64,000 nt of DNA, from the NCBI RefSeq assembly GCF_023703775.1, contig NZ_CP098514.1, positions 2,763,998 through 2,827,997 on the forward strand, given 5' to 3'. The position numbers and the translations under genes were made by a program. The stretch is from Haloplanus sp. GDY1 (GTDB lineage Archaea > Halobacteriota > Halobacteria > Halobacteriales > Haloferacaceae). Positions 1-15,878 of the stretch are shown here, one piece after another; the first letter of the stretch is position 1, and every line of letters begins with the position of its first letter. The notes under the pieces were generated by a model. The model had not been told where the DNA came from, ran no database searches, and worked only from the letters and a program-made list of their open reading frames with translations.

Positions 1-986
1 ACGAACTCCTCCTCGTCCTCGCTGAGGTCCGACTCCGCGAAGTAGTAGTCCGCGATCAGCTGGAACCGCCCCTCGTCGATCGGATCGACGATGTACGTCC
101 CGTAGCCGTCCGCGGTGCCGTACATGTTGACCGTGAAGTTGGGCCAGAAGTAGTGGAACTGGGCCTCGTGTTCGTCGTGGATGCGCAGTTCGTCCTCGAC
201 GTCCTCCTCGTGGGTGTAGTGGAGCACCCAGTGGTAGTCGTTGACCTCCAGTTCCGACTCGTCGAGCTGGATTCCCCTGATCCAGTCCTGGTGGTTCGCC
301 TGACAGTGGTCGCACTCGGAGTAGTTGCCGCCGAAGGTCTTCCAGTTGCACTCCACCTCGGAGACGTACCGGCGGGCGTGTTCGTACTCCGACAGCGGGA
401 GCGACTCCAGCCGGGTCTTCAGCTTCCCGGCCTGTTCGGCCAGCGTGAGCGGCGGGTCGTCGGCGAAGTTCAGGAAGACCAGCGGGCCGATGTCGTCGGT
501 GCGAACCTCCATGAGGCCGTTCTCGTCGGGATCGAGCCCCGAGACGTCCGCGTCGTCGAGGTCCGGGTTGAGACTCGCCTCCTCGAAGCTCCGGGGCGTG
601 CTCCGCAGGTCGCCGTCCAGGTCGTAGGTCCAGAGGTGGTACGGACACTGGATCCGCCCCATGTTCCCGGGGTCGGTCATCGGCGTGTCCTCGACCATCT
701 TCGAGCCGCGGTGCGCACAGACGTTGTAGAACGCGCGCACGTCGCCGTCCTCGTCGCGCGCGACGACGACCTGCTTGTCGCCGACGGTCCGGGTGAAGTA
801 GTCGCCCGTCTCGGGGATGCAGTTCTCGTGACCGGCGTAGACCCAGTACCGGGAGAAAATCTTCTCCTTTTCCATCTCCCAGACGTCGGGGTCGGTGAAG
901 TATCTCGCCGGCAGGGCGTTCGTCTCGTCGGTGATGTCGGGGCTCACGGCGCTCACTTCCTCCGCGCCGTCGTTCCACCGTGTCAT
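1..986 (-). CDS. Rieske non-heme iron oxygenase, alpha subunit (glycine betaine monooxygenase-like), 3' end missing
   Basis: The frame is open from an ATG at 986 to the left edge, about 328 residues, so the C-terminus is cut off. A Rieske [2Fe-2S] motif is visible as C90-x-H92 and C114-x2-H117 (CAHRG and CPYHLW). The mononuclear iron site is visible as H227 and H232 in NYSECDHCQANH. This two-domain layout is that of ring-hydroxylating-type oxygenases, including the GbcA and CntA enzymes that cleave methyl or trimethylamine groups from betaine and carnitine. Adjacent dimethylglycine-dehydrogenase-type genes make oxidative N-demethylation of a betaine the best guess. The substrate is inferred. 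The reductase partner is not in view and may lie beyond the left edge. Confidence 0.85.
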   Translation of the reverse strand, partial: MTRWNDGAEEVSAVSPDITDETNALPARYFTDPDVWEMEKEKIFSRYWVYAGHENCIPETGDYFTRTVGDKQVVVARDEDGDVRAFYNVCAHRGSKMVEDTPMTDPGNMGRIQCPYHLWTYDLDGDLRSTPRSFEEASLNPDLDDADVSGLDPDENGLMEVRTDDIGPLVFLNFADDPPLTLAEQAGKLKTRLESLPLSEYEHARRYVSEVECNWKTFGGNYSECDHCQANHQDWIRGIQLDESELEVNDYHWVLHYTHEEDVEDELRIHDEHEAQFHYFWPNFTVNMYGTADGYGTYIVDPIDEGRFQLIADYYFAESDLSEDEEEF

Positions 987-1042
987 GTACCCTCACGTCG
1001 ACGCCCCGGGATCAAAGTCCCTGACCTGTCTCACGTGTGGCC

Positions 1043-1052
1043 TTTAATATGG
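1043..1052 (-). promoter_or_regulatory. candidate TATA element of the Rieske oxygenase gene
   Basis: On the minus strand the sequence reads ATATTAAAGG about 60 nt before the ATG at 986, implying a leader of about 32 nt. A second AT-rich element (TTTTATATC, near 1096-1104) lies further upstream and could be an alternative promoter. Assigned by position and composition only. Confidence 0.4.
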
Positions 1053-1149
1053 ATTGACGATTCGCCCCCGAAACGGCTGGGGAACTTACGAATCAGATAT
1101 AAAACCGGGAAAACTTCCAAAACGAACGGACGTCACCGACGAGACTTCG

Positions 1150-2007
1150 TCACGCGTCGAGCCGTCCGCGCCGCCACGCCTCGGTGTCGGCCACCTGGTT
1201 GAAGGTGTAGATGTGGAGCCCCCGGATGCCGTACTCCGGGTCGCCGGCGTACGGGGCCAGGCCGTCGACCAGGTCGTCCGGCGTGTACTTCCCGCGCGAG
1301 CCGACGAGCTGGCGGACGAACCCCACGATGCCGCTCGTCTTCCGCAGGAAGCGCACCGAGTCGCCGACGCCGACCTTCTGTGAGATGTTCAGGAGGCGCT
1401 GGTACTTCATGACGCCCGGGATCCCCACCTCGACGGGGAGGTCGATCCCGCGGTCGCGGATCTCCTCGATCCAGCGCCGGACGGCCTCCGGGTCGTAACA
1501 GAGCTGCGTCGTGACGTACGTGGCGTACGGCGCCTTCTTCGCCATCGACTCGGCCAGCGTCCGGTCGTCGAGGAAGTCGTGGCCCTCCGGGTACCCCGTG
1601 ATCCCCACCTCGTCGAAGTCGTAGCCGAGGTCGTCGAGCGCCACGAGGAGGTCGTGGGCCGACTCGAACTCGCCGACGGGATCCTCGCGGTCGCCGCCGG
1701 GCACGAAGACGTCGGTGACGCCGGCGTCGACGAGGCGGCCGGCGACCTCGTCGAGGTGGTCGTCGTCGCGCACGTACCGCGCGGCGACGTGGGGGATGGG
1801 GTCGTACCCCCGGGCGGCCGCCCGCTCGGACCACTCCACCGTCGCGTCGAGGCCGAGCTGTGGCGAGGCCGTGACCGCGATCTCGGCGCCCTCCGGAAGC
1901 TGTTCCATCTGCCCCTCGAAGCTGTCGAAGGGCATCAGCTCGAACCGGGGGTCGGTGAGCAGGCTCGATGCGCCGTCGGCGGATTCGGTCGAGGTGGTGA
2001 GTGGCAT
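1150..2007 (-). CDS. metF: methylenetetrahydrofolate reductase-like protein
   Basis: The 285-residue protein fits the MetF TIM-barrel family, which interconverts 5-methyl-THF and 5,10-methylene-THF using flavin. Visible family features are the segment PHVAARYV (about 72-79), the VPGGDREDP loop (102-110) in the place of the usual LRGDP motif, and the tract LPVEVGIPGVMKYQRL in the second half. It is co-directional with the DmdA-like gene 54 nt upstream, so the two are probably co-transcribed. That pairing suggests it works in the oxidative direction, turning methyl-THF made by the methyltransferase into methylene-THF. A role in methionine synthesis cannot be excluded. Confidence 0.8.
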   Translation of the reverse strand: MPLTTSTESADGASSLLTDPRFELMPFDSFEGQMEQLPEGAEIAVTASPQLGLDATVEWSERAAARGYDPIPHVAARYVRDDDHLDEVAGRLVDAGVTDVFVPGGDREDPVGEFESAHDLLVALDDLGYDFDEVGITGYPEGHDFLDDRTLAESMAKKAPYATYVTTQLCYDPEAVRRWIEEIRDRGIDLPVEVGIPGVMKYQRLLNISQKVGVGDSVRFLRKTSGIVGFVRQLVGSRGKYTPDDLVDGLAPYAGDPEYGIRGLHIYTFNQVADTEAWRRGRLDA

Positions 2008-2061
2008 GTGGTCAGCAGTCGTCGAGCGTGGGGTCGCGTGGTGGTTCGGGCTGTCGAACGG

Positions 2062-3447
2062 TTACTCGCCGGCGTCCTGCCGGGCGTTCAGCTTCGCCTG
2101 TTCCCGGGCGCTCGGGTTCACCGACTCCTTGAACGGCACCTCCGCGACCGTCGCGTACGCGGGTTCGCCGTCCTCCTCGGCGTACTCGTCGGGCAGGTGG
2201 ACGGCGAATTCGAGGTCGAGGTCCTCCTCGTAGATCTCGTCGTTGAGGAGGGCGTCCGTCTCGGACTCCAGCTTCTCCGCGGGCACGAACCCGAGGCCGA
2301 TGTTCGTCTCCAGATCGGGGTTCCACCACGGCGAGGTCATGTACCCACACTCCTTCCCGGTGTCGGGATCGGAGATGATCCAGAAGTCCGGCGCGTAGTC
2401 GCGGATCGGTTCGCCCGCGATCTTCAGGCCGACCATCTTCAGGTTGAACGGGTACTCGCCGCCCTCGATCAGTTCCTTCTGGCGTTCGAGTTCCTCCTTG
2501 CCGATGTAGTCGCCCTCCTTGTCGTCGGGGACCTGGTAGCCGAGGTTGACCTGGAACGGCGAGGTCTCGTGGTCCATGTCCTGTCCCCACGAGAGGATGC
2601 CCGCCGCGATCCGGCGGTGGTGACCGGGGGCGATCTGGCGGCCGCCGTGGTCCTTCACCGTCTCCATCACGGGATCCCAGACGCGCTCGGCGTTCTCGCT
2701 CGCGTCCTTCACGTAGATCTCGAAGCCCTTCTCGCCGGAGAAGCCGGTCTGGCTCACCAGCACCGGACAGCCGTTGATCTCCGTGTCCATGAGGCCGTAG
2801 TACGGAATGTCGCTGACCTCCTCGCCGACCACTTCGACCATCACGTCCTCCGAGAGCGGGCCCTGAATCTGCATCGGCGCGACGTCGATCTCGTCGATCT
2901 CGACGTCGAAGTCCATGCCGACGTTGACGCCCTGCAGCCACTGCATGAGCGTCGAGTCGGAGATGGAGAACCAGAACTCGTCCTCCGCGACTCGCAGGAG
3001 GACCGGGTCGTTCAGGATGCCGCCGTCCTCGTTACAGAGGATGACGTACTTGCCCTTCATCGACTCGATTTCCGTCGCGTCCCGCGTGATCACGTAGTCG
3101 GTCAGGGCCTCGGCGTCCGGCCCCTTCACGCGGATCTGGCGCTCCACGGCCACGTCCCACAGCGTCACGCTCTCGGTCAGCGCCTCGTACTCCTTCATCG
3201 CGCCGCCGTCCTCGGGTTCGACGAGTCCGCGCGGGTGGTAGACGCGGTTGTAGACCGTACAGCGCCACGCGCCCTCCTCGTTGAACGACTTGTGGAAGAA
3301 GGGGGACTTGCGGACGCGCGTCGAGACGAGCATCTCGATGCCCGGATCGCCGGTCTGTCGCAGGTTCCGCGGGAGTACGCGGTCCGACTGATCGATTTCC
3401 GGGTGGTTCGGGTGTGCGTCGAGCGACTGGGATTCGTTGGTCGTCAT
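2062..3447 (-). CDS. DmdA/GcvT-family THF-dependent demethylase (dimethylsulfoniopropionate demethylase-like)
   Basis: The chosen ATG at 3447 gives 461 residues; the frame runs further upstream, but that part would overlap the promoter. The protein has the GcvT fold and specifically resembles the bacterial DmdA branch: VYNRVYHP (65-72), WDVAVERQ (97-104), GGILNDPV (142-149, with the conserved acidic D147) and IQGP (194-197). Known DmdA transfers a methyl group from DMSP to THF. The neighbouring metF fits a methyl-THF product. It is about 90 residues longer than typical DmdA, mainly at the N-terminus and in the last 100 residues. No DmdB or DmdC genes are in view, so glycine betaine or another onium compound is an equally possible substrate. 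Confidence 0.75.
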   Translation of the reverse strand: MTTNESQSLDAHPNHPEIDQSDRVLPRNLRQTGDPGIEMLVSTRVRKSPFFHKSFNEEGAWRCTVYNRVYHPRGLVEPEDGGAMKEYEALTESVTLWDVAVERQIRVKGPDAEALTDYVITRDATEIESMKGKYVILCNEDGGILNDPVLLRVAEDEFWFSISDSTLMQWLQGVNVGMDFDVEIDEIDVAPMQIQGPLSEDVMVEVVGEEVSDIPYYGLMDTEINGCPVLVSQTGFSGEKGFEIYVKDASENAERVWDPVMETVKDHGGRQIAPGHHRRIAAGILSWGQDMDHETSPFQVNLGYQVPDDKEGDYIGKEELERQKELIEGGEYPFNLKMVGLKIAGEPIRDYAPDFWIISDPDTGKECGYMTSPWWNPDLETNIGLGFVPAEKLESETDALLNDEIYEEDLDLEFAVHLPDEYAEEDGEPAYATVAEVPFKESVNPSAREQAKLNARQDAGE

Positions 3448-3500
3448 CTGTCCCCATCGATGATCCCTATCTGCATAAGGGTGAGCCACAGGTATCTCGT

Positions 3501-3509
3501 ACATATAAG
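3501..3509 (-). promoter_or_regulatory. TATA element for the DmdA-like/metF unit
   Basis: The minus strand reads TTATATGT, centred about 58 nt before the ATG at 3447, giving a leader of about 32 nt. The spacing matches the promoters proposed for the Rieske gene and for the divergent FAD-oxidoreductase gene. Confidence 0.55.
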
Positions 3510-3548
3510 AGGCCCCCGGCGCAGGACCGACCGCCTGCTGCGCCCTGC

Positions 3549-3570
3549 TTAACATATCTATCATCGTTAA
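3549..3570. promoter_or_regulatory. inverted repeat in the divergent promoter region (candidate operator)
   Basis: TTAAC (3549-3553) and GTTAA (3566-3570) form a 5-bp inverted repeat with a 12-bp spacer, near the midpoint between the divergent ATGs at 3447 and 3659. It lies between the two TATA elements. Its position suits a shared regulator, but the arms are short and chance is possible in this AT-rich patch. Confidence 0.3.
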
Positions 3571-3596
3571 AATTTGGGCCGTTCACGGGTCACCGG

Positions 3597-3604
3597 TATA
3601 TAAA
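3597..3604 (+). promoter_or_regulatory. TATA element for the FAD-oxidoreductase/GcvT tandem
   Basis: TATATAAA is centred 59 nt before the ATG at 3659, consistent with a leader of about 32 nt. A second weaker element, ATTATAAG at 3626-3633, could drive a nearly leaderless transcript. Confidence 0.6.
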
Positions 3605-3658
3605 TGGGTGTCGTCGCGGAGGTGTGATTATAAGACGCATCGGACGAACTATTTCGGT

Positions 3659-6235
3659 ATGAGTGATGGAAACACGCTACCCAGCGACGCCGGCACCGTA
3701 ATCGTCGGCGCCGGCATCGTCGGGTGTAACCTCGCGTACCAACTCACCGAATTGGGTCGCGACGACGTGGTGGTCGTCGACCAGGGACCGATGCCGACGA
3801 CCGGCGGTTCCTCGACGCACGCGCCGGGCATCATGTTCCAGACGGCCGAGTCGAAGGAGCTCTCGAAGTTCGCGAACTACAGCCGACAGCTGTACTCCCA
3901 GCTCGAGGGACGCGACGGCCAGCAGGCGTACAACGAGACGGGCGGCATCGAAGTCGCCCGCAGCGAGGAGCGGATGGCCTTCCTCCAGCGTCGGGTCGAA
4001 CACGCGACGGCGTGGGGCATTCCGGATCCGCAGCTGCTGACGCCGGAGGAGGTGACCGACCACCTGCCGCTCGTCGACGAGAGCCAGATCCTCGGCGGCT
4101 ACTACTCGCCGACCGACGGCCAGGTGTCGGGCGTCGTCGCCTGCGACGCGCTGGCCCGCGAGGCGATGGACCGGGGGGCGACGTTCGTCCCACACACCCG
4201 TACCGAAGACGTCGAAGTCGTGGACGGCTCGGTCGAGTCGGTCGTCACCGAACGCGGAACGATCGACTGTGACGAAGTCGTCGTCGCGACGAACATCTGG
4301 GCCCGCCAGTTGGGCGAGAAACTGGGCGTCCACCTGCCCGTGACGCCGGTCGAACACCAGTATACGATGACCGAGTCGCTGGACGAGCTGGCCGACAGCG
4401 CGGTCGACGTCACCGACCACCCGCTGTTCGAGGGCTACGAGAACGTCTCCGGCGAGAAGGCGAAACGGCTGCTCGTCGGTCCGGACCGCCCGATCCTGCG
4501 CGACCAGGACAACGCCATGTACTACCGGAACCACGGCGACTCCTACGGCATCGGCTCGTACAACCACGAGCCCATCGTGCCGGACCCGCAGGAGTTGGGC
4601 GGCAACGACCCCGACGGCGAGCAGGGATCGGTCCACGAGTTCACGGAGTATCACATGGAGAATCCGACCCACCCGGACCGGCCGCACAAGGCCCCGCGAC
4701 GGGCCGCCGACGAACTCCTCCCGGCGACGGCGGGCAAGGACCTCGAGTTCAAGTACAACGGGATGTTCGCCGAGTCGCCCAACGGCCTGCCCGTGATGGG
4801 GCCGGTACAGGAACTCGACGGGCTGTGGACGGCGGCGGCCATCTGGGTCACCCACGCCGGCGGCGCGGCGAAGGCGCTCGCGGAGTGGATGGAAAACGGC
4901 GTGCCGCGCCTCCCCGACGGCCCGATCGACCTCGCCCACTGCGACGTCAATCGCTTCGACGACCACGAGGGAAGCTGGGACTTCGCCCGCGACATCGGCG
5001 GCGAGGAGTACCGCATCGTCTACAACATCATGCACCCCAAGTGGGTGTGGGAGGGCAAGCAGCGCGACATCCGCCGGACGCCGATGTACCACTCCCACGA
5101 GGAGTACGGTGCGGAACTCTGGGCCTCCGCCGGCTGGGAGGAACCCCAGTGGTTCGAGTCGAACGCCGACCTGGTAGAGCGGTACGGCGACCGGATCCCG
5201 GACCGCAACGGATGGGAGGGGAAATACTGGTCGCCCATCGAGGGCGCCGAACACCTCCACGTCCGCGAGCACGTCGGCCTCCACGACATGACGGCGTTCA
5301 ACAAGATGGAGGTCGTCGGCCCCGAGGCCGGCGAGTTCGTCCAGCGGCTCTGTACGAACGACATGGACCTCGACGTGGGACAGGTTCGGTACACCCTGAT
5401 GTGCAACGAGGCGGGCGGCGTCCGCGCCGACATCACGGTGACCCGCACCGACGACGACCGCTACCTCCTGCTCACGACGGGCCGCGAGGTGGGGAACAAC
5501 CATGTCGCGTGGGTGCGCGAGCAGGCGCCCGAGGGGGCCGTGGTGAACGACGTTACGTCCTCCTTGGCCGCGATGGTCTGTACCGGTCCGGACGCGCGGA
5601 ACGTCCTCTCGAAGATCGCCGACGCCGACCTCTCCGACGACGCCTTCCCCTTCTTCACGAGCCAGCAGTTCTACGTGAAGAACGTCCCCGTCACCGCCCT
5701 GCGGGTCTCCTACGCGGGCGAACTCGGCTGGGAACTGTACACGCCCGCCGAGTACGGCGAGACGCTCTGGGAACACGTTCTGGAGGCGGGCGAGGAGTAC
5801 GACATCCGCCCCTACGGCAACGGCGCGCTCGACTCCCTGCGCATCGAGAAGGGGTTCCGGCTGTGGGGTGAGGACCTCCACACCGAACACAACCCCTACG
5901 AGGCCGGCCTCGGCTTCGCCGTCGACCTCGACACCGACTTCGTCGGGAAGGAGGCCGTCGCGGCCGCCGCCGCCGGCGACGACATCCGCCACGAGGTCGC
6001 CGTCCTCACGCTCGACGACCCCGAGGCGACGATCCTCGACGACCGCCCGGTGCTCGACCCTGCGACCGACGACCCGATCGGCTACGTCCACTCCGCCGAG
6101 TACGGCTACTCGGTCGGCGCCTGCGTCGCCTACACCTACCTTCCGCCGGAGTTCGCGGATCCAGGCACCGACGTGGAGGTCCTGTACGAGGGCGAGAAAT
6201 ACGCCGCGACCGTCCGCGAGGAGCCGCTGATTTAG
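3659..6235 (+). CDS. FAD-dependent oxidoreductase/GcvT fusion, dimethylglycine/sarcosine dehydrogenase family (copy 1)
   Basis: The 858-residue protein starts at the ATG following the TATA element. The N-terminal DAO-type domain has a dinucleotide motif GAGIVG (17-22). GGSSTHAPG carries H54 at the position that holds the covalent flavin in dimethylglycine dehydrogenase. An FAO_M-like linker (about 385-440) leads to GcvT and GcvT_C domains, with the conserved acidic residue in GGVRAD. The family oxidises N-methyl groups and passes the one-carbon unit to THF. The stop is followed at once by the ATG of a paralogue (TAGATG), so the two are certainly co-transcribed. Which paralogue acts on dimethylglycine and which on sarcosine cannot be read from the sequence. 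Confidence 0.88.
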   Translation: MSDGNTLPSDAGTVIVGAGIVGCNLAYQLTELGRDDVVVVDQGPMPTTGGSSTHAPGIMFQTAESKELSKFANYSRQLYSQLEGRDGQQAYNETGGIEVARSEERMAFLQRRVEHATAWGIPDPQLLTPEEVTDHLPLVDESQILGGYYSPTDGQVSGVVACDALAREAMDRGATFVPHTRTEDVEVVDGSVESVVTERGTIDCDEVVVATNIWARQLGEKLGVHLPVTPVEHQYTMTESLDELADSAVDVTDHPLFEGYENVSGEKAKRLLVGPDRPILRDQDNAMYYRNHGDSYGIGSYNHEPIVPDPQELGGNDPDGEQGSVHEFTEYHMENPTHPDRPHKAPRRAADELLPATAGKDLEFKYNGMFAESPNGLPVMGPVQELDGLWTAAAIWVTHAGGAAKALAEWMENGVPRLPDGPIDLAHCDVNRFDDHEGSWDFARDIGGEEYRIVYNIMHPKWVWEGKQRDIRRTPMYHSHEEYGAELWASAGWEEPQWFESNADLVERYGDRIPDRNGWEGKYWSPIEGAEHLHVREHVGLHDMTAFNKMEVVGPEAGEFVQRLCTNDMDLDVGQVRYTLMCNEAGGVRADITVTRTDDDRYLLLTTGREVGNNHVAWVREQAPEGAVVNDVTSSLAAMVCTGPDARNVLSKIADADLSDDAFPFFTSQQFYVKNVPVTALRVSYAGELGWELYTPAEYGETLWEHVLEAGEEYDIRPYGNGALDSLRIEKGFRLWGEDLHTEHNPYEAGLGFAVDLDTDFVGKEAVAAAAAGDDIRHEVAVLTLDDPEATILDDRPVLDPATDDPIGYVHSAEYGYSVGACVAYTYLPPEFADPGTDVEVLYEGEKYAATVREEPLI

Positions 6236-8779
6236 ATGAGCAGGAAGTTCCCATCCTCCGCCGAGACGGTCGTCATCGGCGCCGGCGCCGTCGGCTGTAG
6301 CGTCGCCTACCACCTCTCGGAACTCGGTGCCGAGGACGTGGTCGTCGTCGATCAGGGGCCCCTGCCGATCACCGGCGGGTCGTCGACGCACGCCCCCGGC
6401 ATCATGTTCCAGACGTCGCCGTCGAAGCTCATGACGAAGACGGCTCACTACACCAGCCGCCTCCTCGACGACGCGGGCGTCTACGACGAGGTGGGCGGCA
6501 TCGAGGTGGCCCGTTCGGAGGAGCGCATGGACTTCCTCCAGCGACGGGTCGAACACGCCACGGCCTACGGCCTCCCCGACCCGCAACTGCTGACTCCCGA
6601 GGAGGTGACCGACCACCTGCCGCTGGTGAACGAGGACGCCATCCTCGGCGGCTACTACTCGCCGACCGACGGCCGCGTCGACGGCGTCGCCGCCCTCCAG
6701 TGGTACATCGAGGAGTCGGACGCCGACTTCCACGGCCACACGTCGGTGACCGACCTCGACGTCGCCGGCGGCGAGGTGCGGGCCGTCGAGACGGATCGGG
6801 GCCGCATCGACTGCGACCGCTGTGTCGTCGCGACCAACAACTGGGGGTACCAGACGGGGAAACTCGCGGGGCTGGACCTGCCCATCGCCCCCGTCGAACA
6901 CCAGTACGCGGTCACCGAACCGCTCGACGAACTCGCCGGCGCGGACCCCGCCACGCGCGTCGACACCGACGCCCTCGACGTTCCGGGCGACCACCGCATC
7001 ACCGACGCGATGGGGAAGGCGCCCAGCCGCCCGGTCGGCCGCGACCAGGACCACTCCCTCTACTTCCGCACCCACGGCGACAGCCTCGGCCTCGGCTCGT
7101 ACAACCACGAGTCCCTGACGGTCGACCCGGACGCCATGGGGGGGAACACCGAGGAGCGCCAGGCCTCGGTCCACGACTTCACCGACGAACACTGGGAGCG
7201 GGCGACCCACCCCGACCGCGACAAATCACCGCAGAGGGCCTTCGAGGAACTCCTCCCCGTCTCCGAGGGGGCGGACTTCCAGGCCACCGAGAACGGCATC
7301 TTCGTGTTCACGCCCGACGGCATGCCGGTCCTCGGCGAGACGGCGGACGTGTCCGGCCTGTGGACCGCCCTCGCCATCTGGTGGACCCACTCCGGCGGCT
7401 ACGGGAAGATCCTCGCGGAGTGGATGGAGACGGGGGTGCCGAAGCTGCCCGACGGCCCCGTCGACACGGGCGCCATCCACGTCAACCGGTTCGAGCCCCA
7501 CGCCGGCAGCAAGCCCTACTTCGTCGACCGGGGCGCCACGCGGTACCGGCAGGTCTACAGCATCGTCGAACCCCACTGGCAACCCGACGACCACCGCGGC
7601 CTCCGCCGCAGTCCCTTCTACCACGCCCAGGAGGACCTCGGCGCCCACTTCGTCCAGAGCGGCGGCTGGGAGTCGGCCCAGTGGTACGAGTCCAACGCCG
7701 ACCTCGTCGACCGCTACGCGGACCGCATCCCCGAGCAGGAGGGCTGGCAGGGCATCAACCGCTCGCGGATCGAGGGCGCCGAACACCTCCACACCCGCGA
7801 GCACGTCTCGATGTTCGACATGACGACGTTCAGCTCGATCATGGTCGAGGGGAGCGAGGCCGGTGCCTTCCTCCAGCGGGTCTGTAGCAACGACGTCGAC
7901 ATCGACGTGGGGCAGGTGCGCTACTCCCTCCTCCTGAACGAGGGGGGCAACGTCCTCGCGGACGTGACCGTCGTCCGCCTCGGTGACGACGAGTACATGG
8001 TGACCACCGGCGGTGGCAACTCGCCGGGCATCCACGGATCGTGGCTGGAGAACCACGCCCCGGACACCGTCTCGGTCACCGTCGAGGAGGGCGCCCGCTC
8101 CACGATCGGCCTGTGGGGGCCGAAGTCGCGGCTCCTCCTCCAGCGGGTCACCGAGGCGGACGTCTCCGCCGAGGGCTTCCCCTACTTCTCGGCCAAGCGC
8201 CTGTACGTCGGCGAGGTGCCCGTGATCGCGCTTCGGGTCTCCTACGTCGGCGAACTCGGCTGGGAGCTGTGGGCCCCCGCCGAGTACGGCGCCCGACTCT
8301 GGGAGACGCTGTGGGAGGCGGGGCAGGACCTCGACGTGCGCCCGATGGGTGGCGGCGCGCTGGAGTCGATGCGCCTGGAGAAGGGCTACCGGCTCTGGGG
8401 GACGGACATCGACACCGACACCGATCCCTTCGCCGCCGGCCTGTCCTTCGCCGTCGACATGGACACGGAGTTCGTCGGCAGGGAGGCCTTGGCGGCGGGC
8501 GGCGACCCCGACAGCCGCATCGTCCCAATCACCCTCGACGACTCGACGGATCGACTGTTGAGCGGCCGCCCCGTCACGGCGGACGGCGAGACGCTCGGCT
8601 ACGTCCAGGCCGCCGACTACGGCTACAGCGTCGGCGCGTCCATCGCCTACACGTACGTGCCGAGCGAGTACGCGGAGCCCGGCACCGCGGTGCAGGTCAC
8701 CTGCGAGGGCGAGACGTACGACGCCACCGTGCGCGAGGAACCGCTGTTCGATCCGGGGAGGGAGAAGATCCTGCGGTAG
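6236..8779 (+). CDS. FAD-dependent oxidoreductase/GcvT fusion, dimethylglycine/sarcosine dehydrogenase family (copy 2)
   Basis: The 847-residue paralogue has the same domain order as the upstream gene. The FAD motif is GAGAVG (15-20), the candidate flavin-linking histidine is H52 in GGSSTHAPG, and GGNVLAD in the GcvT domain keeps the conserved aspartate. Compared with copy 1 it lacks about ten residues after the first FAD region and diverges at the presumed substrate face. With zero intergenic bases, the two may be made in equal amounts. A hand-off of dimethylglycine to sarcosine to glycine by the two proteins is the simplest model, but it is inferred from context. Confidence 0.87.
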   Translation: MSRKFPSSAETVVIGAGAVGCSVAYHLSELGAEDVVVVDQGPLPITGGSSTHAPGIMFQTSPSKLMTKTAHYTSRLLDDAGVYDEVGGIEVARSEERMDFLQRRVEHATAYGLPDPQLLTPEEVTDHLPLVNEDAILGGYYSPTDGRVDGVAALQWYIEESDADFHGHTSVTDLDVAGGEVRAVETDRGRIDCDRCVVATNNWGYQTGKLAGLDLPIAPVEHQYAVTEPLDELAGADPATRVDTDALDVPGDHRITDAMGKAPSRPVGRDQDHSLYFRTHGDSLGLGSYNHESLTVDPDAMGGNTEERQASVHDFTDEHWERATHPDRDKSPQRAFEELLPVSEGADFQATENGIFVFTPDGMPVLGETADVSGLWTALAIWWTHSGGYGKILAEWMETGVPKLPDGPVDTGAIHVNRFEPHAGSKPYFVDRGATRYRQVYSIVEPHWQPDDHRGLRRSPFYHAQEDLGAHFVQSGGWESAQWYESNADLVDRYADRIPEQEGWQGINRSRIEGAEHLHTREHVSMFDMTTFSSIMVEGSEAGAFLQRVCSNDVDIDVGQVRYSLLLNEGGNVLADVTVVRLGDDEYMVTTGGGNSPGIHGSWLENHAPDTVSVTVEEGARSTIGLWGPKSRLLLQRVTEADVSAEGFPYFSAKRLYVGEVPVIALRVSYVGELGWELWAPAEYGARLWETLWEAGQDLDVRPMGGGALESMRLEKGYRLWGTDIDTDTDPFAAGLSFAVDMDTEFVGREALAAGGDPDSRIVPITLDDSTDRLLSGRPVTADGETLGYVQAADYGYSVGASIAYTYVPSEYAEPGTAVQVTCEGETYDATVREEPLFDPGREKILR

Positions 8780-8869
8780 TCGCGACGCGGGTCGGGCGAC
8801 GGCGACGTGGCGCTTCCACCGGAGCGTGCCGCCGCGGTCCCCCCGGTTCGACCATGAAAAAACACCAAG

Positions 8870-8877
8870 CTTTATCT
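8870..8877 (+). promoter_or_regulatory. candidate promoter of the BCCT transporter unit
   Basis: The element CTTTATCT follows an A-rich stretch (AAAAAACACC) and predicts transcription from about 8898. The 283 bp between the oxidoreductase and transporter genes otherwise hold only the small frame described next. The transporter can therefore be expressed separately from the catabolic genes. Confidence 0.4.
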
Positions 8878-8897
8878 GACACAACGAGTAGGGAAGT

Positions 8898-9035
8898 ATG
8901 TGGCTCCCTGTCATGGTGGCGGCTACCCATGCCCACGGGGCACGACGAGGGACCGACGTGACGGGGGACGGCAGTCAGGTGGGACGGCGCACAGAGCGAC
9001 AACCGACGGTGCAGACACGAACATACGATCCATGA
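8898..9035 (+). CDS. possible 45-codon leader peptide upstream of the BCCT gene
   Basis: An ATG sits 1-2 nt from the predicted transcription start and opens a 45-codon frame ending in TGA, 27 nt before the transporter ATG. The predicted product starts MWLPVMVAATHAHGARRG and is otherwise arginine-rich and featureless. Leaderless starts are common in haloarchaea, so translation is plausible. No homology is recognised. It may be a chance frame in a leader, or an upstream regulatory frame. Confidence 0.25.
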   Translation: MWLPVMVAATHAHGARRGTDVTGDGSQVGRRTERQPTVQTRTYDP

Positions 9036-9062
9036 GCAATTCACGACGGACGGAGGCACGGT

Positions 9063-10823
9063 ATGGCTGACTCAGACGAGACGACCGGCGCGATGTCCGA
9101 CGGCCTGCAGGTGGAACTGTTCCACCCCGAGTCGGATCGCGAACCCGGCGACACGAACATCCAGGCGCTCGGCTTCGACATCCACCCGGTGGTGTTCCCG
9201 GTCGCGCTGTTGATCATCGGCGCGTTCATAGCGCTGACGATTCTGGGACCGAGGGTCGGCCTCGACGTCGCGGGCGCCTACACGTGGCTGTTCAACTTCA
9301 TCGGCGAGAACTTCGGCTGGTTCTACCTGCTGGCGGTGAACATCTTCATCGTCGTCCTGCTCTTTTTCGCGTTCAGCAAGTACGGCAAGATCAAGATCGG
9401 TGGCGTCCAGGCCGAGAAGGAGTTCAGCGACTTCTCCTGGATGGCGATGCTGTTCAGCGCCGGCATGGGGATCGGCCTCATGTTCTTCAGCGTCTCCGAA
9501 CCGCTGTACTACTTCCAGAACGTCCCCGGCTTCTTCGGTGCCGAGGCCGGGACGGGTGCCGCGGCGTCCGCGGCGATGGCCCAGACGTTCTTCCACTGGG
9601 GCTTCCACCCGTGGGCCGTCTACGGCCTCGTCGGCCTCGGCCTCGCCTTCTTCTCGTTCAACCGCGGCCTGCCGCTCACCTTCCGCTCCATCTTCTGGCC
9701 GCTCCTCGGCGAGCGGATCTACGGCTGGCCCGGTCACCTCATCGACCTCGTGACGGTGTTCGCGACCCTGTTCGGCCTCGCGACGTCGCTCGGCCTCGGG
9801 GTCGCACAGGTCAACACCGGGCTCTCCTACGTCGGCGGGGACCTCCTCGGACTGGTCTCCATCCCGAACACCCCCCTGGTGCAGGTGCTGCTGATCGCGG
9901 GGATCACCGGCATCGCGACCCTCTCGGTCGCGGCCGGCCTCGACGGCGGCGTCAAGCGCCTGAGCACGATCAACCTCTACCTGATGTTCGCGCTGCTCGG
10001 GTTCCTGTTGATCGCCGGCCCGACGGTGTTCATCCTCGGCACCTGGGTCGAGGGCCTCGGCGTCTACTTCAACAACATCCTCGCGCTCGGCTTCTTCCGT
10101 GGCACCCTCGCCCCGGGCGGCGGGACGGTCACCGCGTGGACCGTCTTCTACTGGGGCTGGTGGATCGCGTGGTCGCCCTTCGTCGGCATGTTCATCGCCC
10201 GCATCTCCAAGGGCCGCACCGTCCGCGAGTTCGTGCTCGGCGTGCTGGTGCTGCCGGCCATGTTCTCGACCATCTGGCTGTCCACGTTCGGCGGCAGCGC
10301 GCTGTTCAACTCGCTCGTGGGGAACGGGGCGGCGCTGGCCACCTACAACGACCTCGGGCAGACGGTCGCCATGTTCGCCATGCTCGAACAGTTCCCCCTC
10401 GGGGCGATTTCGGGCATCCTCGCCACCCTCCTCGTCATCACCTTCTTCGTCACCTCCTCGGACTCCGGGTCGCTTGTCGTCGACCACCTGACCTCCGGCG
10501 GCAAACACGACGTGCCGAAGGTCCAGCGCATCTTCTGGGCGATCACCGAGGGCCTCGTCGCCGCCATCCTGCTGTACGGTGGTGGCCTGACCGCCCTGCA
10601 GACGGCGGCCATCACGACCGGGCTGCCCTTCGCCGTCATTCTCTGTCTGATGTGTTACACCGTCTATCTCGGGCTCAGCAACGAGTACGAGATCCTCGAA
10701 TCCGAGGAGTTCGCCGAGACCATCGAGGAACTCTCGGACCGCGAGAACGTCGACGTGGTGACCTCCGGCGACGAGATGGTGACGGACATCAGGGAGGGCG
10801 ACGACCCGGCGAGTAGCGACTGA
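9063..10823 (+). CDS. BCCT-family transporter, BetP-like (glycine betaine/onium compound importer)
   Basis: The 586-residue protein has about 12 hydrophobic spans. It has the glycine stretch GMGIGLMFF (134-142) that lines the BetP substrate and sodium sites. The aromatic box reads WGWWIAWSPF (364-373), matching the betaine-binding tryptophans of BetP. The C-terminal tail is acidic and hydrophilic, a place where BetP-type carriers are osmo-regulated. Its position directly after the demethylation genes suggests that it supplies their substrate. A role in osmoprotectant uptake is the alternative and is not exclusive. Confidence 0.9.
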   Translation: MADSDETTGAMSDGLQVELFHPESDREPGDTNIQALGFDIHPVVFPVALLIIGAFIALTILGPRVGLDVAGAYTWLFNFIGENFGWFYLLAVNIFIVVLLFFAFSKYGKIKIGGVQAEKEFSDFSWMAMLFSAGMGIGLMFFSVSEPLYYFQNVPGFFGAEAGTGAAASAAMAQTFFHWGFHPWAVYGLVGLGLAFFSFNRGLPLTFRSIFWPLLGERIYGWPGHLIDLVTVFATLFGLATSLGLGVAQVNTGLSYVGGDLLGLVSIPNTPLVQVLLIAGITGIATLSVAAGLDGGVKRLSTINLYLMFALLGFLLIAGPTVFILGTWVEGLGVYFNNILALGFFRGTLAPGGGTVTAWTVFYWGWWIAWSPFVGMFIARISKGRTVREFVLGVLVLPAMFSTIWLSTFGGSALFNSLVGNGAALATYNDLGQTVAMFAMLEQFPLGAISGILATLLVITFFVTSSDSGSLVVDHLTSGGKHDVPKVQRIFWAITEGLVAAILLYGGGLTALQTAAITTGLPFAVILCLMCYTVYLGLSNEYEILESEEFAETIEELSDRENVDVVTSGDEMVTDIREGDDPASSD

Positions 10824-12683: not shown

Positions 12684-13922
12684 CTACTCGCTCCCGCTCC
12701 CGTCGTCGAAGAGGTCGGTGAGAGCGCCGCCGTTCTCGTCGCCCAGAACCGCCCGCCCGAGGAGTCGGCCGCCGATGACGGCCGGACTGACCACCGCGTC
12801 GGCGCCGACGGCTTCGAGTTTGTCGACGTGTCGCTGGTCGGTCGCCGCGGCGACGATTCGTACGTCGGGGTTGGCCTGCCGCGCCGCGACGACGGCCAGG
12901 GCGTCGCGGGCGTCGTCGTCGGTGGCGACGACCACGCCCCTGGCGGCGTCGATGCGGGCGTCGAGCAGCGGCCCCTCGTCCGTCGGATCGGCGGTCAGGA
13001 CGTTCACCTCCCGGTCGTCGAGCGCGTTCGTCCCCTCGGACTCGGGCGCCACGACGACCACGTCCGCCGTCGCTTCGAGTTCGTCGAGGAGCGGTTCCGT
13101 CAGTTCGCCGTGGCCCAGGACCAGCACGTGGTCCTCGAGCAGTGTGAGTTCGGAGGCGGTCATGGTTCCGAAGGCCTTGGAGATCCGCGATTCGAGGGCC
13201 GGGACGAGCAGCGACCCCGTGGCGACGGTGAACGCGCCCGTCCCGAGGACGATCACCGAGAGCGTGAACAGCTTCGTCACCTGCGTCGTCGGCGTCGCGT
13301 CGCCGTACCCCACGGTCGTCCCGGTGACGATGATGTAGTAGAAGGCGTCGGTCAGGCTCTCGACGCCGGTGAAGTCCTCGCGCATCGCGTAGGTGCCGAC
13401 GGTGCCGTACACCTGCACCGCAACGAAGGAGAGGAGCGCGGTGGCCTGAAACGGCGTCAGATCGAGCGGGCGGTCGAAGCCGCTCCGGTTCGTGACCACC
13501 AGCGGTAGGCCGACGGCGCCGGCGACCAACAGCAACAGGTCGGTGGCGTCGCCCGTCACCAGCGGGGCGGCGAGGAGCGCCGGAAACAGGGCGAGCGCCC
13601 CGTACCACGCGAGGCGATAGCCCGCCCGCAACCCCGCGGCGACGACGACGAGCAGGAACGCCCCGAGGATGCTCGCGAGGGGGACCACCGCCGTCGCTCC
13701 AGCCGGGAGGAGTCCGGCCAGCGGACCCGCGGGGACGAACGATCCCTGACTGAGGTGGGAGAGACCGGCGACGAAGGCGAGGACGGCGGCCGCGCCCGTC
13801 ACCCACACCGCGGTCCGCACGCCGGAGAACGTCCGCCAGTAGACCAGCGGCACTCGATCCGGCCGGTGGAACAGCTCGTCGAGGGCCGTCTCGCTCGGCT
13901 GATCGGGCGTGTCGGTCGCCAC
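12684..13922 (-). CDS. potassium channel with N-terminal membrane domain and RCK (TrkA-N) domain
   Basis: 412 residues. The N-terminal half has about five hydrophobic spans, then an outer helix (158-176), a pore with selectivity filter TVGYGD (203-208) and an inner helix (220-242). The cytoplasmic half is an RCK/TrkA-N fold starting DHVLVLGHGELTEP, with GHGELT (270-275) as its nucleotide-binding turn. The extra N-terminal spans resemble 6-TM rather than 2-TM channels. A TATA element 20-30 nt before the ATG indicates a leaderless transcript, divergent from the second BCCT carrier. Confidence 0.88.
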   Translation of the reverse strand: MATDTPDQPSETALDELFHRPDRVPLVYWRTFSGVRTAVWVTGAAAVLAFVAGLSHLSQGSFVPAGPLAGLLPAGATAVVPLASILGAFLLVVVAAGLRAGYRLAWYGALALFPALLAAPLVTGDATDLLLLVAGAVGLPLVVTNRSGFDRPLDLTPFQATALLSFVAVQVYGTVGTYAMREDFTGVESLTDAFYYIIVTGTTVGYGDATPTTQVTKLFTLSVIVLGTGAFTVATGSLLVPALESRISKAFGTMTASELTLLEDHVLVLGHGELTEPLLDELEATADVVVVAPESEGTNALDDREVNVLTADPTDEGPLLDARIDAARGVVVATDDDARDALAVVAARQANPDVRIVAAATDQRHVDKLEAVGADAVVSPAVIGGRLLGRAVLGDENGGALTDLFDDGSGSE

Positions 13923-14000: not shown

Positions 14001-15878
14001 ATGGCGACCCACGGCGCGACCGGCGTCGAGCGACTCGTTCGCGCGGCGCTGCTCCCCGTGTGTGCCGCCTCCGGTATCGTCGTCGTCTCGGGCTTTTTCT
14101 TCCCGTGGATCGTCGGCTCCGTCGTGACCGGCCGGGGGTGGCTCGTCGTCGCCCTCCTCTTTTTCGGCTCCGGGCTGGCCTACCTCGCGCTCCTCCCCCT
14201 CGACGCACTGGCGGGCGACGAGGACGCCCGTCCCGGCGCGCCCTACCTCCTCCGTGTCCGGCACGTCTCCCCGCGGGACTGGGCGAGCGGCTTCCTCGCG
14301 CGCCAGGATCCGATCACGTTCGGCGTGCCGGTCCTCGTCCTCGCGGCCTTCTTCGCCGCCCGACTCCTCGCGCCCGGTGCGACGACTGCCGCCGTGGCCG
14401 TCGTCGACGGCGTGCTCTTCGACGACTTCGCCCCGCTTTTCCTCGGGGCGATGTTTCTGGCCGTCCTCTACGCCCTGTTCCTGCTCGTCGGGCCGTGGGG
14501 GGCGATCAAACTCGGCGGCCCGGACGCGGAGCCGACCTACACCTACCCGACGTACTTCGCGATGGTGTTCACCGCGGGCATCGCCGCCGGCGTCGTCTTC
14601 TGGGGCCCCGCCGAGTCGCTCTTTCACTACGGCTCGCCGCCGCCCGGGACCGGCGTCGCGCCCCGATCGGACGCGGCCGTGGTCGTCGCTCTGAGCTACG
14701 CCCTCTTTCACTGGGGGGTCTCCGCCTGGAGCGCCTACCTCGTCGTCGGTCTCCCGATCGCCTACTTCACGTACCGGCACGGCGCGCCGCTCCGCGTCTC
14801 GACGATTCTGACGCCCTTCCTCGGCGTCGAGGGCCTCGACGGCTACGCGGCGAAACTCGTGGACGTGCTCGCGGTCTTTGCCACCATCGGCGGCGTCGCC
14901 ACCTCCGTCGCCATCGTCGGCCGGCAGTTCCTCGCCGGCGTGGCGTTCCAGTGGGGCGTGAGCTTCGGCGGCGTCGGCGCCCTCCTCTTCGTCGCCGGCC
15001 TCGTCGTCATCTACAGCATCTCCGCGGAGAGCGGCGTCCAGCGGGGGATTCGACGCATCGCCGGCGTCAACCTCCTCCTCTTTGCCCTCCTCTCGATGCT
15101 CCTCGTCGCCGTCGGCCCTCGCGGCTTCGTCCTCGACGCCGGGGTCGACGCCGTCGGCCGATACGCGACCGAGTTCGTCGCGATGAGCCTCTCACCCGGC
15201 GGCGACTGGGCCGCCGACTGGACGGTCTGGAACTGGTCGTGGTGGTTCTCTTGGGCGCCCTTCGCCGGCCTCTTCCTCGCGGCGCTCTCGAAGGGGCGCC
15301 GGGTGCGGACCGTCGTGTTCACGGGCGTGGTCGCCACGTCGGCGGCCTCCGTCTGCTGGCACCTCCTGCTCGGCGGGACGGCGCTCTCGCTCCAGCACTC
15401 GGGCCGGGTGGACGCCCTCGCCGCCGTCGCCGCCGGCGGCGGCTCCGAGGCCGTCGCGGGCTTTCCCGTCTTCGCCGCCCTCCCGCTCAGCCGACTGCTG
15501 ATGTTCCTGTTTCTCGCGCTCATCGTCGTCTTCATCGTCACCTCCGCCGACACGTCGACGCTCGTCGTCTCCATCCTGGCGACCGAGCGGGGCCACGCCC
15601 CCACCACCGGCAGCATCGTCTTCTGGGGCGTGCTCCAGGGCCTCGTCGCCGTCGCCGTCCTCCTCGTCGGCGGCGGCGAGTCGCTACAGACCGCGGCGGT
15701 GGCGACGGGCGGTCCCTTCGCCGTCCTCTCGCTCGTCTCGCTGTACGGCCTCACGCGGACCTTCCGCCGACACGAGCGCGGGCATCCGACCGTCCTCGAT
15801 CGGGCGGCCGTCGTCCTCGCGGCCACGCCGCTCGGTCGGTTCGTCCCCTCCGACGACGGCGATCACCGGGAGCGATAG
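14001..15878 (+). CDS. BCCT-family transporter, divergent from the BetP type
   Basis: 625 residues with about 12-13 spans. The aromatic box WNWSWWFSWAPF is present. The region that is GMGIGLMFF in the other BCCT protein reads GIAAGVVFWGPAESL here, so the glycine-rich substrate and sodium stretch is changed and the substrate is probably different. It also has an extra N-terminal extension with two to three spans. Its neighbours are a K+ channel and a Usp protein, not catabolic genes, which suggests a role in osmotic balance rather than nutrition. The 3' end overlaps the convergent small membrane protein gene by 16 nt. Confidence 0.85.
   Translation: MATHGATGVERLVRAALLPVCAASGIVVVSGFFFPWIVGSVVTGRGWLVVALLFFGSGLAYLALLPLDALAGDEDARPGAPYLLRVRHVSPRDWASGFLARQDPITFGVPVLVLAAFFAARLLAPGATTAAVAVVDGVLFDDFAPLFLGAMFLAVLYALFLLVGPWGAIKLGGPDAEPTYTYPTYFAMVFTAGIAAGVVFWGPAESLFHYGSPPPGTGVAPRSDAAVVVALSYALFHWGVSAWSAYLVVGLPIAYFTYRHGAPLRVSTILTPFLGVEGLDGYAAKLVDVLAVFATIGGVATSVAIVGRQFLAGVAFQWGVSFGGVGALLFVAGLVVIYSISAESGVQRGIRRIAGVNLLLFALLSMLLVAVGPRGFVLDAGVDAVGRYATEFVAMSLSPGGDWAADWTVWNWSWWFSWAPFAGLFLAALSKGRRVRTVVFTGVVATSAASVCWHLLLGGTALSLQHSGRVDALAAVAAGGGSEAVAGFPVFAALPLSRLLMFLFLALIVVFIVTSADTSTLVVSILATERGHAPTTGSIVFWGVLQGLVAVAVLLVGGGESLQTAAVATGGPFAVLSLVSLYGLTRTFRRHERGHPTVLDRAAVVLAATPLGRFVPSDDGDHRER

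Follow-up and report, generated by a model that had tools for sequence, protein, structure and literature searches.

A candidate cobalamin-free glycine betaine:tetrahydrofolate methyltransferase in a demethylation gene cluster of Haloplanus sp. GDY1

In the literature that we searched, the first demethylation of glycine betaine is assigned only to GbcAB, Bhmt and cobalamin-dependent enzymes (PMC12478193), the last exemplified by MtgBCD, in which a corrinoid protein and an MttB-family enzyme bring the methyl group to folate (PMC12478193). A 2011 survey of haloarchaea noted dimethylglycine oxidase (DMGO) and BCCT genes, but not the methyltransferase described here (PMC3102087). The present work concerns positions 1-10823 of a 64,000-nt stretch (the window) of Haloplanus sp. 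GDY1, contig NZ_CP098514.1, where a DmdA-like protein, here called DmdL, is encoded together with a methylenetetrahydrofolate reductase (MTHFR), a Rieske oxygenase, two FAD/GcvT fusions (DMGO1 and DMGO2) and a BCCT carrier. All of these genes had been named in the first-pass annotation, and each is confirmed as a long open frame that matches its family strongly. The cluster is quite likely a glycine betaine catabolic module, and there is a similarly good likelihood that DmdL acts in it as a cobalamin-free glycine betaine:tetrahydrofolate (THF) methyltransferase. Coordinates are window positions, and negative values lie to the left of the window edge.

986 down to 1, continuing to -156, minus strand: Rieske non-haem iron oxygenase, alpha subunit
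1150-2007, minus strand: MTHFR, MetF-like (Pfam MTHFR, PF02219, 43.7 bits, gathering score 24)
2062-3444, minus strand: DmdL, DmdA-like GcvT-fold methyltransferase (Pfam GCV_T, PF01571, 149.7 bits, gathering score 25.6)
about 3445-3658: divergent intergenic region of about 214 bp, separating the demethylase genes from those of the oxidases and the transporter
3659-6235, plus strand: DMGO1, FAD/GcvT fusion, start ATG 3659
6236-8779, plus strand: DMGO2, FAD/GcvT fusion
9063-10823, plus strand: BCCT carrier (Pfam BCCT, 591.5 bits)

In the proposed pathway, the BCCT carrier would bring in glycine betaine, and DmdL would pass one N-methyl group straight to THF, with neither cobalamin nor oxygen, yielding dimethylglycine and 5-methyl-THF, which the neighbouring MTHFR would convert to 5,10-methylene-THF. 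The Rieske oxygenase would carry out this first step as well, at the expense of oxygen and with formaldehyde as the product beside dimethylglycine. Dimethylglycine would be converted to sarcosine by DMGO2, and sarcosine to glycine by DMGO1, with methylene groups loaded onto THF. Exits are encoded nearby in relatives: glycine could become serine (GlyA) and serine pyruvate (serine/threonine dehydratase), while one-carbon units could leave as formate and CO2 via FolD, Fhs and formate dehydrogenase. We infer the substrates of DmdL and of the Rieske oxygenase, the direction of MTHFR and the order of the oxidases from sequence and genomic context. Neither an MttB-family nor a homocysteine S-methyltransferase family protein turned up in a search of the window's genome. 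The cobalamin and Bhmt routes known elsewhere thus seem to be missing, with DmdL and the Rieske oxygenase remaining as first-step candidates. The proposed DmdL reaction has the same net outcome as MtgBCD, a glycine betaine methyl group reaching folate, but would do so with no MttB family member in the genome.

The distribution of these genes was followed in 391 Halobacteria genomes, with matches to DmdL in 97, to MTHFR in 102 and to the Rieske protein in 72, and strong matches to DMGO in 116. MTHFR accompanies DmdL in 96/97 genomes but the Rieske protein in only 27/72, and the DmdL and MTHFR genes are at most 12 kb apart in 76/95. The 116 strong-DMGO genomes divide into 52 with DmdL only, 39 with the Rieske gene only, 23 with both and 2 with neither (odds ratio 0.023, Fisher p 3e-12, a value that is too small because genomes rather than independent events are counted). 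At genus level the pattern persists despite kinship among the genomes (by genus majority, 15 DmdL, 14 Rieske, 4 both, 1 neither). A strong DMGO1 match is missing from 22 DmdL genomes; queried with DMGO2, 21/22 of these gave a 37-53% homologue, in many cases 12-25 kb from DmdL. Because DmdL and the Rieske protein are inversely distributed among DMGO-bearing genomes, DmdL with MTHFR on one side and the Rieske oxygenase on the other look like interchangeable first steps. This fits the earlier proposal of an oxygenase route beside a redox-neutral THF-methyltransferase route, followed by two oxidative demethylations and served by betaine import. The accompanying remark that possession of both routes is unusual holds in part only, as both are carried by 23 of the 116 DMGO-positive genomes.

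Synteny extends the picture. Close relatives of the window in the genome scan are Haloferacaceae and their allies, and the same genes cluster together across Halobacteria and in bacteria; their clustering is therefore not due to chance. DmdL genes of clade A have as neighbours MTHFR, a DMGO-like pair, threonine/serine dehydratase, GlyA, FolD and Fhs, as well as formate dehydrogenase, folate-synthesis genes and BCCT, a set whose predicted functions form a complete path from betaine to pyruvate and oxidised one-carbon units. Loci of Haladaptatus salinisoli, Salinigranum and Halomicrococcus lack the Rieske gene and all have DmdL, MTHFR and THF/serine genes; for the first two, the stretch read is without the Rieske gene but also keeps both oxidases. 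Within Haloarcula, H. marismortui is of the type that has both DmdL and the Rieske gene; H. hispanica has DmdL on its plasmid, with no close Rieske match among the best plasmid hits, and may lack the Rieske gene. Clade-B DmdL (about 62-72% identity; loci L086, L089 and L123-L128) had no MTHFR or DMGO neighbours when checked, and in Haloarcula it adjoins an MFS carrier, a helix-turn-helix (HTH) regulator and sulfur-transfer genes, so that this clade probably acts on another substrate. Could DmdL as a whole use some other methylated or quaternary compound, such as carnitine, a betaine lipid headgroup or proline betaine, with the Rieske oxygenase alone demethylating glycine betaine? The clade-B neighbourhoods speak for it, as does the closest solved relative of the Rieske protein, a carnitine monooxygenase, showing that such families vary in substrate. 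Yet it would leave unexplained why DMGO genomes have DmdL or the Rieske gene and seldom neither, and why a betaine regulator, GbdR, stands beside DmdL in Marinobacter genomes without a GbcA match; we consider it unlikely.

The role of MTHFR is informed by genomes that lack DmdL. A Pfam search, which did match the window's genome, detected no MTHFR family protein in 48/48 DmdL-free haloarchaeal genomes, with the proviso that the model scores haloarchaeal MTHFR weakly (2.5e-10) and remote forms could escape; a search with the MTHFR protein itself agreed. Six of the 391 genomes hold this MTHFR without a DmdL match. In Halobacteria, MTHFR thus appears to be nearly confined to genomes where something makes 5-methyl-THF. 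MetE-type methionine synthase was found in 13/13 genomes tested, 12 of them MTHFR-free. Since genomes without MTHFR still have this synthase, MTHFR probably serves the oxidation of methyl-THF and not methionine synthesis. 5-Methyl-THF is the classical methyl donor of methionine synthase and a MetE-type protein is present, which would suit an anabolic DmdL/MTHFR pair directing osmolyte methyl groups into methionine; the occurrence of the same MetE-type protein in MTHFR-free relatives and the catabolic character of the neighbours (oxidases, serine dehydratase, formate dehydrogenase, Fhs) make this most improbable. The protein falls under the cut-off of the equivalog TIGR00676 (51.3 against 293.7), and its closest solved counterpart is PDB 7xg9 (E-value = 1.4e-34). 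LigM works with MetF in aromatic O-demethylation in Sphingobium. That system likewise pairs a GcvT-fold THF methyltransferase with an MTHFR, but LigM differs from DmdL in its aromatic O-methyl donor and in an identity of about 16% in the structural match. A LigM-type aromatic O-demethylase had been considered for DmdL given the MetF partner and the length of ~460 aa, and was ruled out by its score of 37-50 bits, even though 7xg9 is the solved structure nearest to the partner MTHFR.

With respect to family placement, the best NCBIfam match of DmdL is DmdA (NF009133), at 243.5 bits under a curated cut-off of 410. GcvT models are also missed (NF001567, 156.4 bits, cut-off 300; TIGR00528, 129.4 bits, cut-off 235.85), and an ordinary GcvT identity was ruled out by these cut-offs together with the residues. 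Specifically, DmdL shares with DmdA Asn107-Asp108, Trp120, Ser122 and Asp125 (P. ubique numbering), which GcvT and DMGO domains lack wholly or partly. P. ubique DmdA is also the best solved relative (PDB 3tfh, E-value = 6.6e-44). AlphaFold gave a DmdL model of modest quality (pLDDT 69.5), which matches T-protein and DmdA structures; it confirms that fold but cannot carry a reading of the substrate pocket. The open reading frame opens at 3564, and because homologues align only from about residue 40-50, translation probably begins at the ATG at 3444, giving 460 aa. In a tree of DmdL, DmdA, GcvT, DMGO domains and alphaproteobacterial relatives, DmdL forms a separate clade of haloarchaeal and bacterial members on a long stem (support 100/99), while P. 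ubique DmdA and two proteins annotated as DmdA fall outside it.

DmdA of Pelagibacter and roseobacters thus resembles DmdL in its GcvT fold, in the N-D and W-x-S-x2-D residues and, as far as sequence allows, in a THF-dependent, redox-neutral methyl transfer. DmdL differs in forming its own clade below the cut-off, in being about 90 residues longer, in a Phe in place of Trp197 and in its setting among betaine genes instead of dmdBCD. A Trp has been named as a DMSP-specific residue (DMSP, dimethylsulfoniopropionate), and the same work lists AEM59334.1, apparently haloarchaeal, among its DmdA homologues (PMC7487153). Despite a different numbering we take this Trp to be Trp197 of P. ubique DmdA; the position is Phe in 48/48 haloarchaeal DmdL sequences and Tyr in two roseobacter DmdA. 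DMSP had been put forward earlier as a substrate alongside glycine betaine, and DmdL might be a DMSP demethylase whose betaine neighbours reflect only shared osmolyte import and a common methyl-folate pool. DmdA is indeed the best curated match and the top PDB sequence match, and a relative from Marivivens (about 37% identity) belongs to a dmdBCD operon. Against this stand the score, the separate clade, the Phe (tempered by the roseobacter Tyr) and the lack of dmdB, dmdC or dmdD neighbours at the clade-A loci read in annotated form; the near-universal DMGO partnership and the Rieske complementarity are not required by DMSP use either. The DMSP route was set aside on the grounds of context, cut-off and tree, and we regard it as very unlikely. 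As for the relatives outside the clade, the DmdA-like gene on the Marivivens plasmid (L081:8998-14157) does not belong to the annotated DmdA group. Genes of the dmdB, dmdC and dmdD types come after it, and the whole is probably an operon for DMSP use whose first enzyme has diverged. On a Lichenihabitans plasmid (L080:7660-12227), genes for MTHFR, a DmdA-like protein, PurU and FolD form a module together with amino-acid ABC transporters, presumably for a methylated substrate.

Both oxidases show the Pfam domain order DAO, FAO_M, GCV_T, GCV_T_C and match PDB dimethylglycine oxidase 1pj5 over nearly their full length (E-value = 7.3e-173 for DMGO1 and 2.4e-164 for DMGO2). The likeness to the Arthrobacter dimethylglycine oxidase region lies in these end-to-end matches and in the folate/serine genes nearby in relatives; the archaeal cluster differs from it in its tandem fusions and in the addition of DmdL with MTHFR and of BCCT. 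At two loci (L037 and L114) a SolA-like protein, of the monomeric sarcosine oxidase type, takes the place of DMGO1 while DMGO2 is kept, and therefore DMGO1 probably oxidises sarcosine and DMGO2 dimethylglycine. At Rieske-only loci of Haladaptatus pallidirubidus and Halarchaeum, a DMGO2-like protein is likewise paired with SolA. The idea that the module would work at low oxygen found no support, the next two enzymes most resembling dimethylglycine oxidase. The carrier exceeds the cut-off of TIGR00842 (474.1 bits against 407.55) and falls short of that of the glycine betaine BCCT model NF047988 (514 bits against 650); by family it is predicted to be a betaine-type importer.

The Rieske gene overruns the left window edge, with its stop at -156 and 52 C-terminal codons outside, the full protein having 380 aa. 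It matches Pfam Rieske (68.4 bits, gathering score 20.3) and Ring_hydroxyl_A (41.3 bits, gathering score 24.9). Its best NCBIfam model is GbcA (NF058607), at 135.2 bits against a cut-off of 670, scored on the truncated frame of 328 aa, and its closest PDB entry is the carnitine monooxygenase CntA (E-value = 2.5e-41). GbcA and CntA are Rieske oxygenases of the quaternary-ammonium group, as is the present protein, which differs from GbcA in its lower score and in having no GbcB-type reductase adjoining. It is a probable glycine betaine monooxygenase, forming the alternative first step.

Outside the archaea, one scan of 84,980 species genomes gave DmdL orthologues of 58-65% identity in Marinobacter, Halomonas, Litchfieldella, SAR86, Gemmatimonadota, Arthrobacter, roseobacters and others, and many of these genes adjoin MTHFR, Fhs and DMGO-like genes, so that synteny spans two domains of life. 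Marinobacter loci further encode GbdR (491.7 bits, above its cut-off of 480) and an L-serine ammonia-lyase. Eleven bacterial genomes were searched for other first-step enzymes: a true GbcA occurs in 3, MttB-family proteins are present in two alphaproteobacteria (where DmdL is not necessarily the only candidate), and four Marinobacter genomes and Arthrobacter castelli showed neither a GbcA-type match nor MttB, Bhmt not having been searched. In SAR86 (L132, L134) and a Cryomorphaceae bin (L135) DmdL adjoins a DMGO-like gene, and these loci also have a second DmdA-like gene with MTHFR, plus Fhs in L134.

Several points weigh against glycine betaine as the substrate of DmdL, beyond the counting of related genomes noted above. 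Clade B is found outside a betaine context, and members of the DmdL clade may thus differ in substrate. The nearest relatives outside that clade include the probable DMSP demethylase of Marivivens and others without an assigned substrate, and phylogeny alone gives no substrate for DmdL. To our knowledge, the open-licence literature included, no enzyme of the DmdL subfamily has been assayed. Haloquadratum walsbyi, with DMGO-like genes and BCCT, reportedly grew no better with betaine (PMC3102087, the only report on haloarchaeal growth on betaine that the open-licence literature gave), and a genome of this species (L095) carries DmdL. These points notwithstanding, we hold it fairly likely, with somewhat more reserve than for the cluster itself, that DmdL founds a cross-domain family of cobalamin-free glycine betaine:THF methyltransferases which, with an oxidative MTHFR, would be a fourth first-step route beside GbcAB, Bhmt and MttB/corrinoid, used by haloarchaea, Marinobacter, SAR86 and Gemmatimonadota. 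The open-licence literature yielded no account of a betaine demethylase that depends on THF, and as far as searched the relatives of DmdL in this setting, in haloarchaea and marine bacteria, have gone unrecognised. If correct, this would explain proteins now labelled only 'glycine cleavage T' or 'aminomethyltransferase' and would provide a marker gene for betaine use.

Further features were recorded within the cluster and around it. In the divergent intergenic region, TATA-like stretches were spotted, by eye only, near 3501-3508 on the minus strand and near 3596-3604 on the plus strand. Two genes lie to the left of the Rieske gene:

-497 to -159 (L005:2503-2841), minus strand: HVO_B0008-type small protein, encoded immediately 3' of the Rieske gene
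-1814 to -1167: HTH_10/BAT regulator, outside positions 1-10823

At the Rieske-bearing loci examined, the next gene after that of the oxygenase encodes such an HVO_B0008-family protein, with both the N- and the C-terminal Pfam domain and a CxxC pair; it is possibly an accessory factor of the oxygenase. Finally, a second, more divergent BCCT carrier is encoded at 14001-15878, near a TrkA-type potassium channel gene (12684-13922) and a UspA-like ORF.

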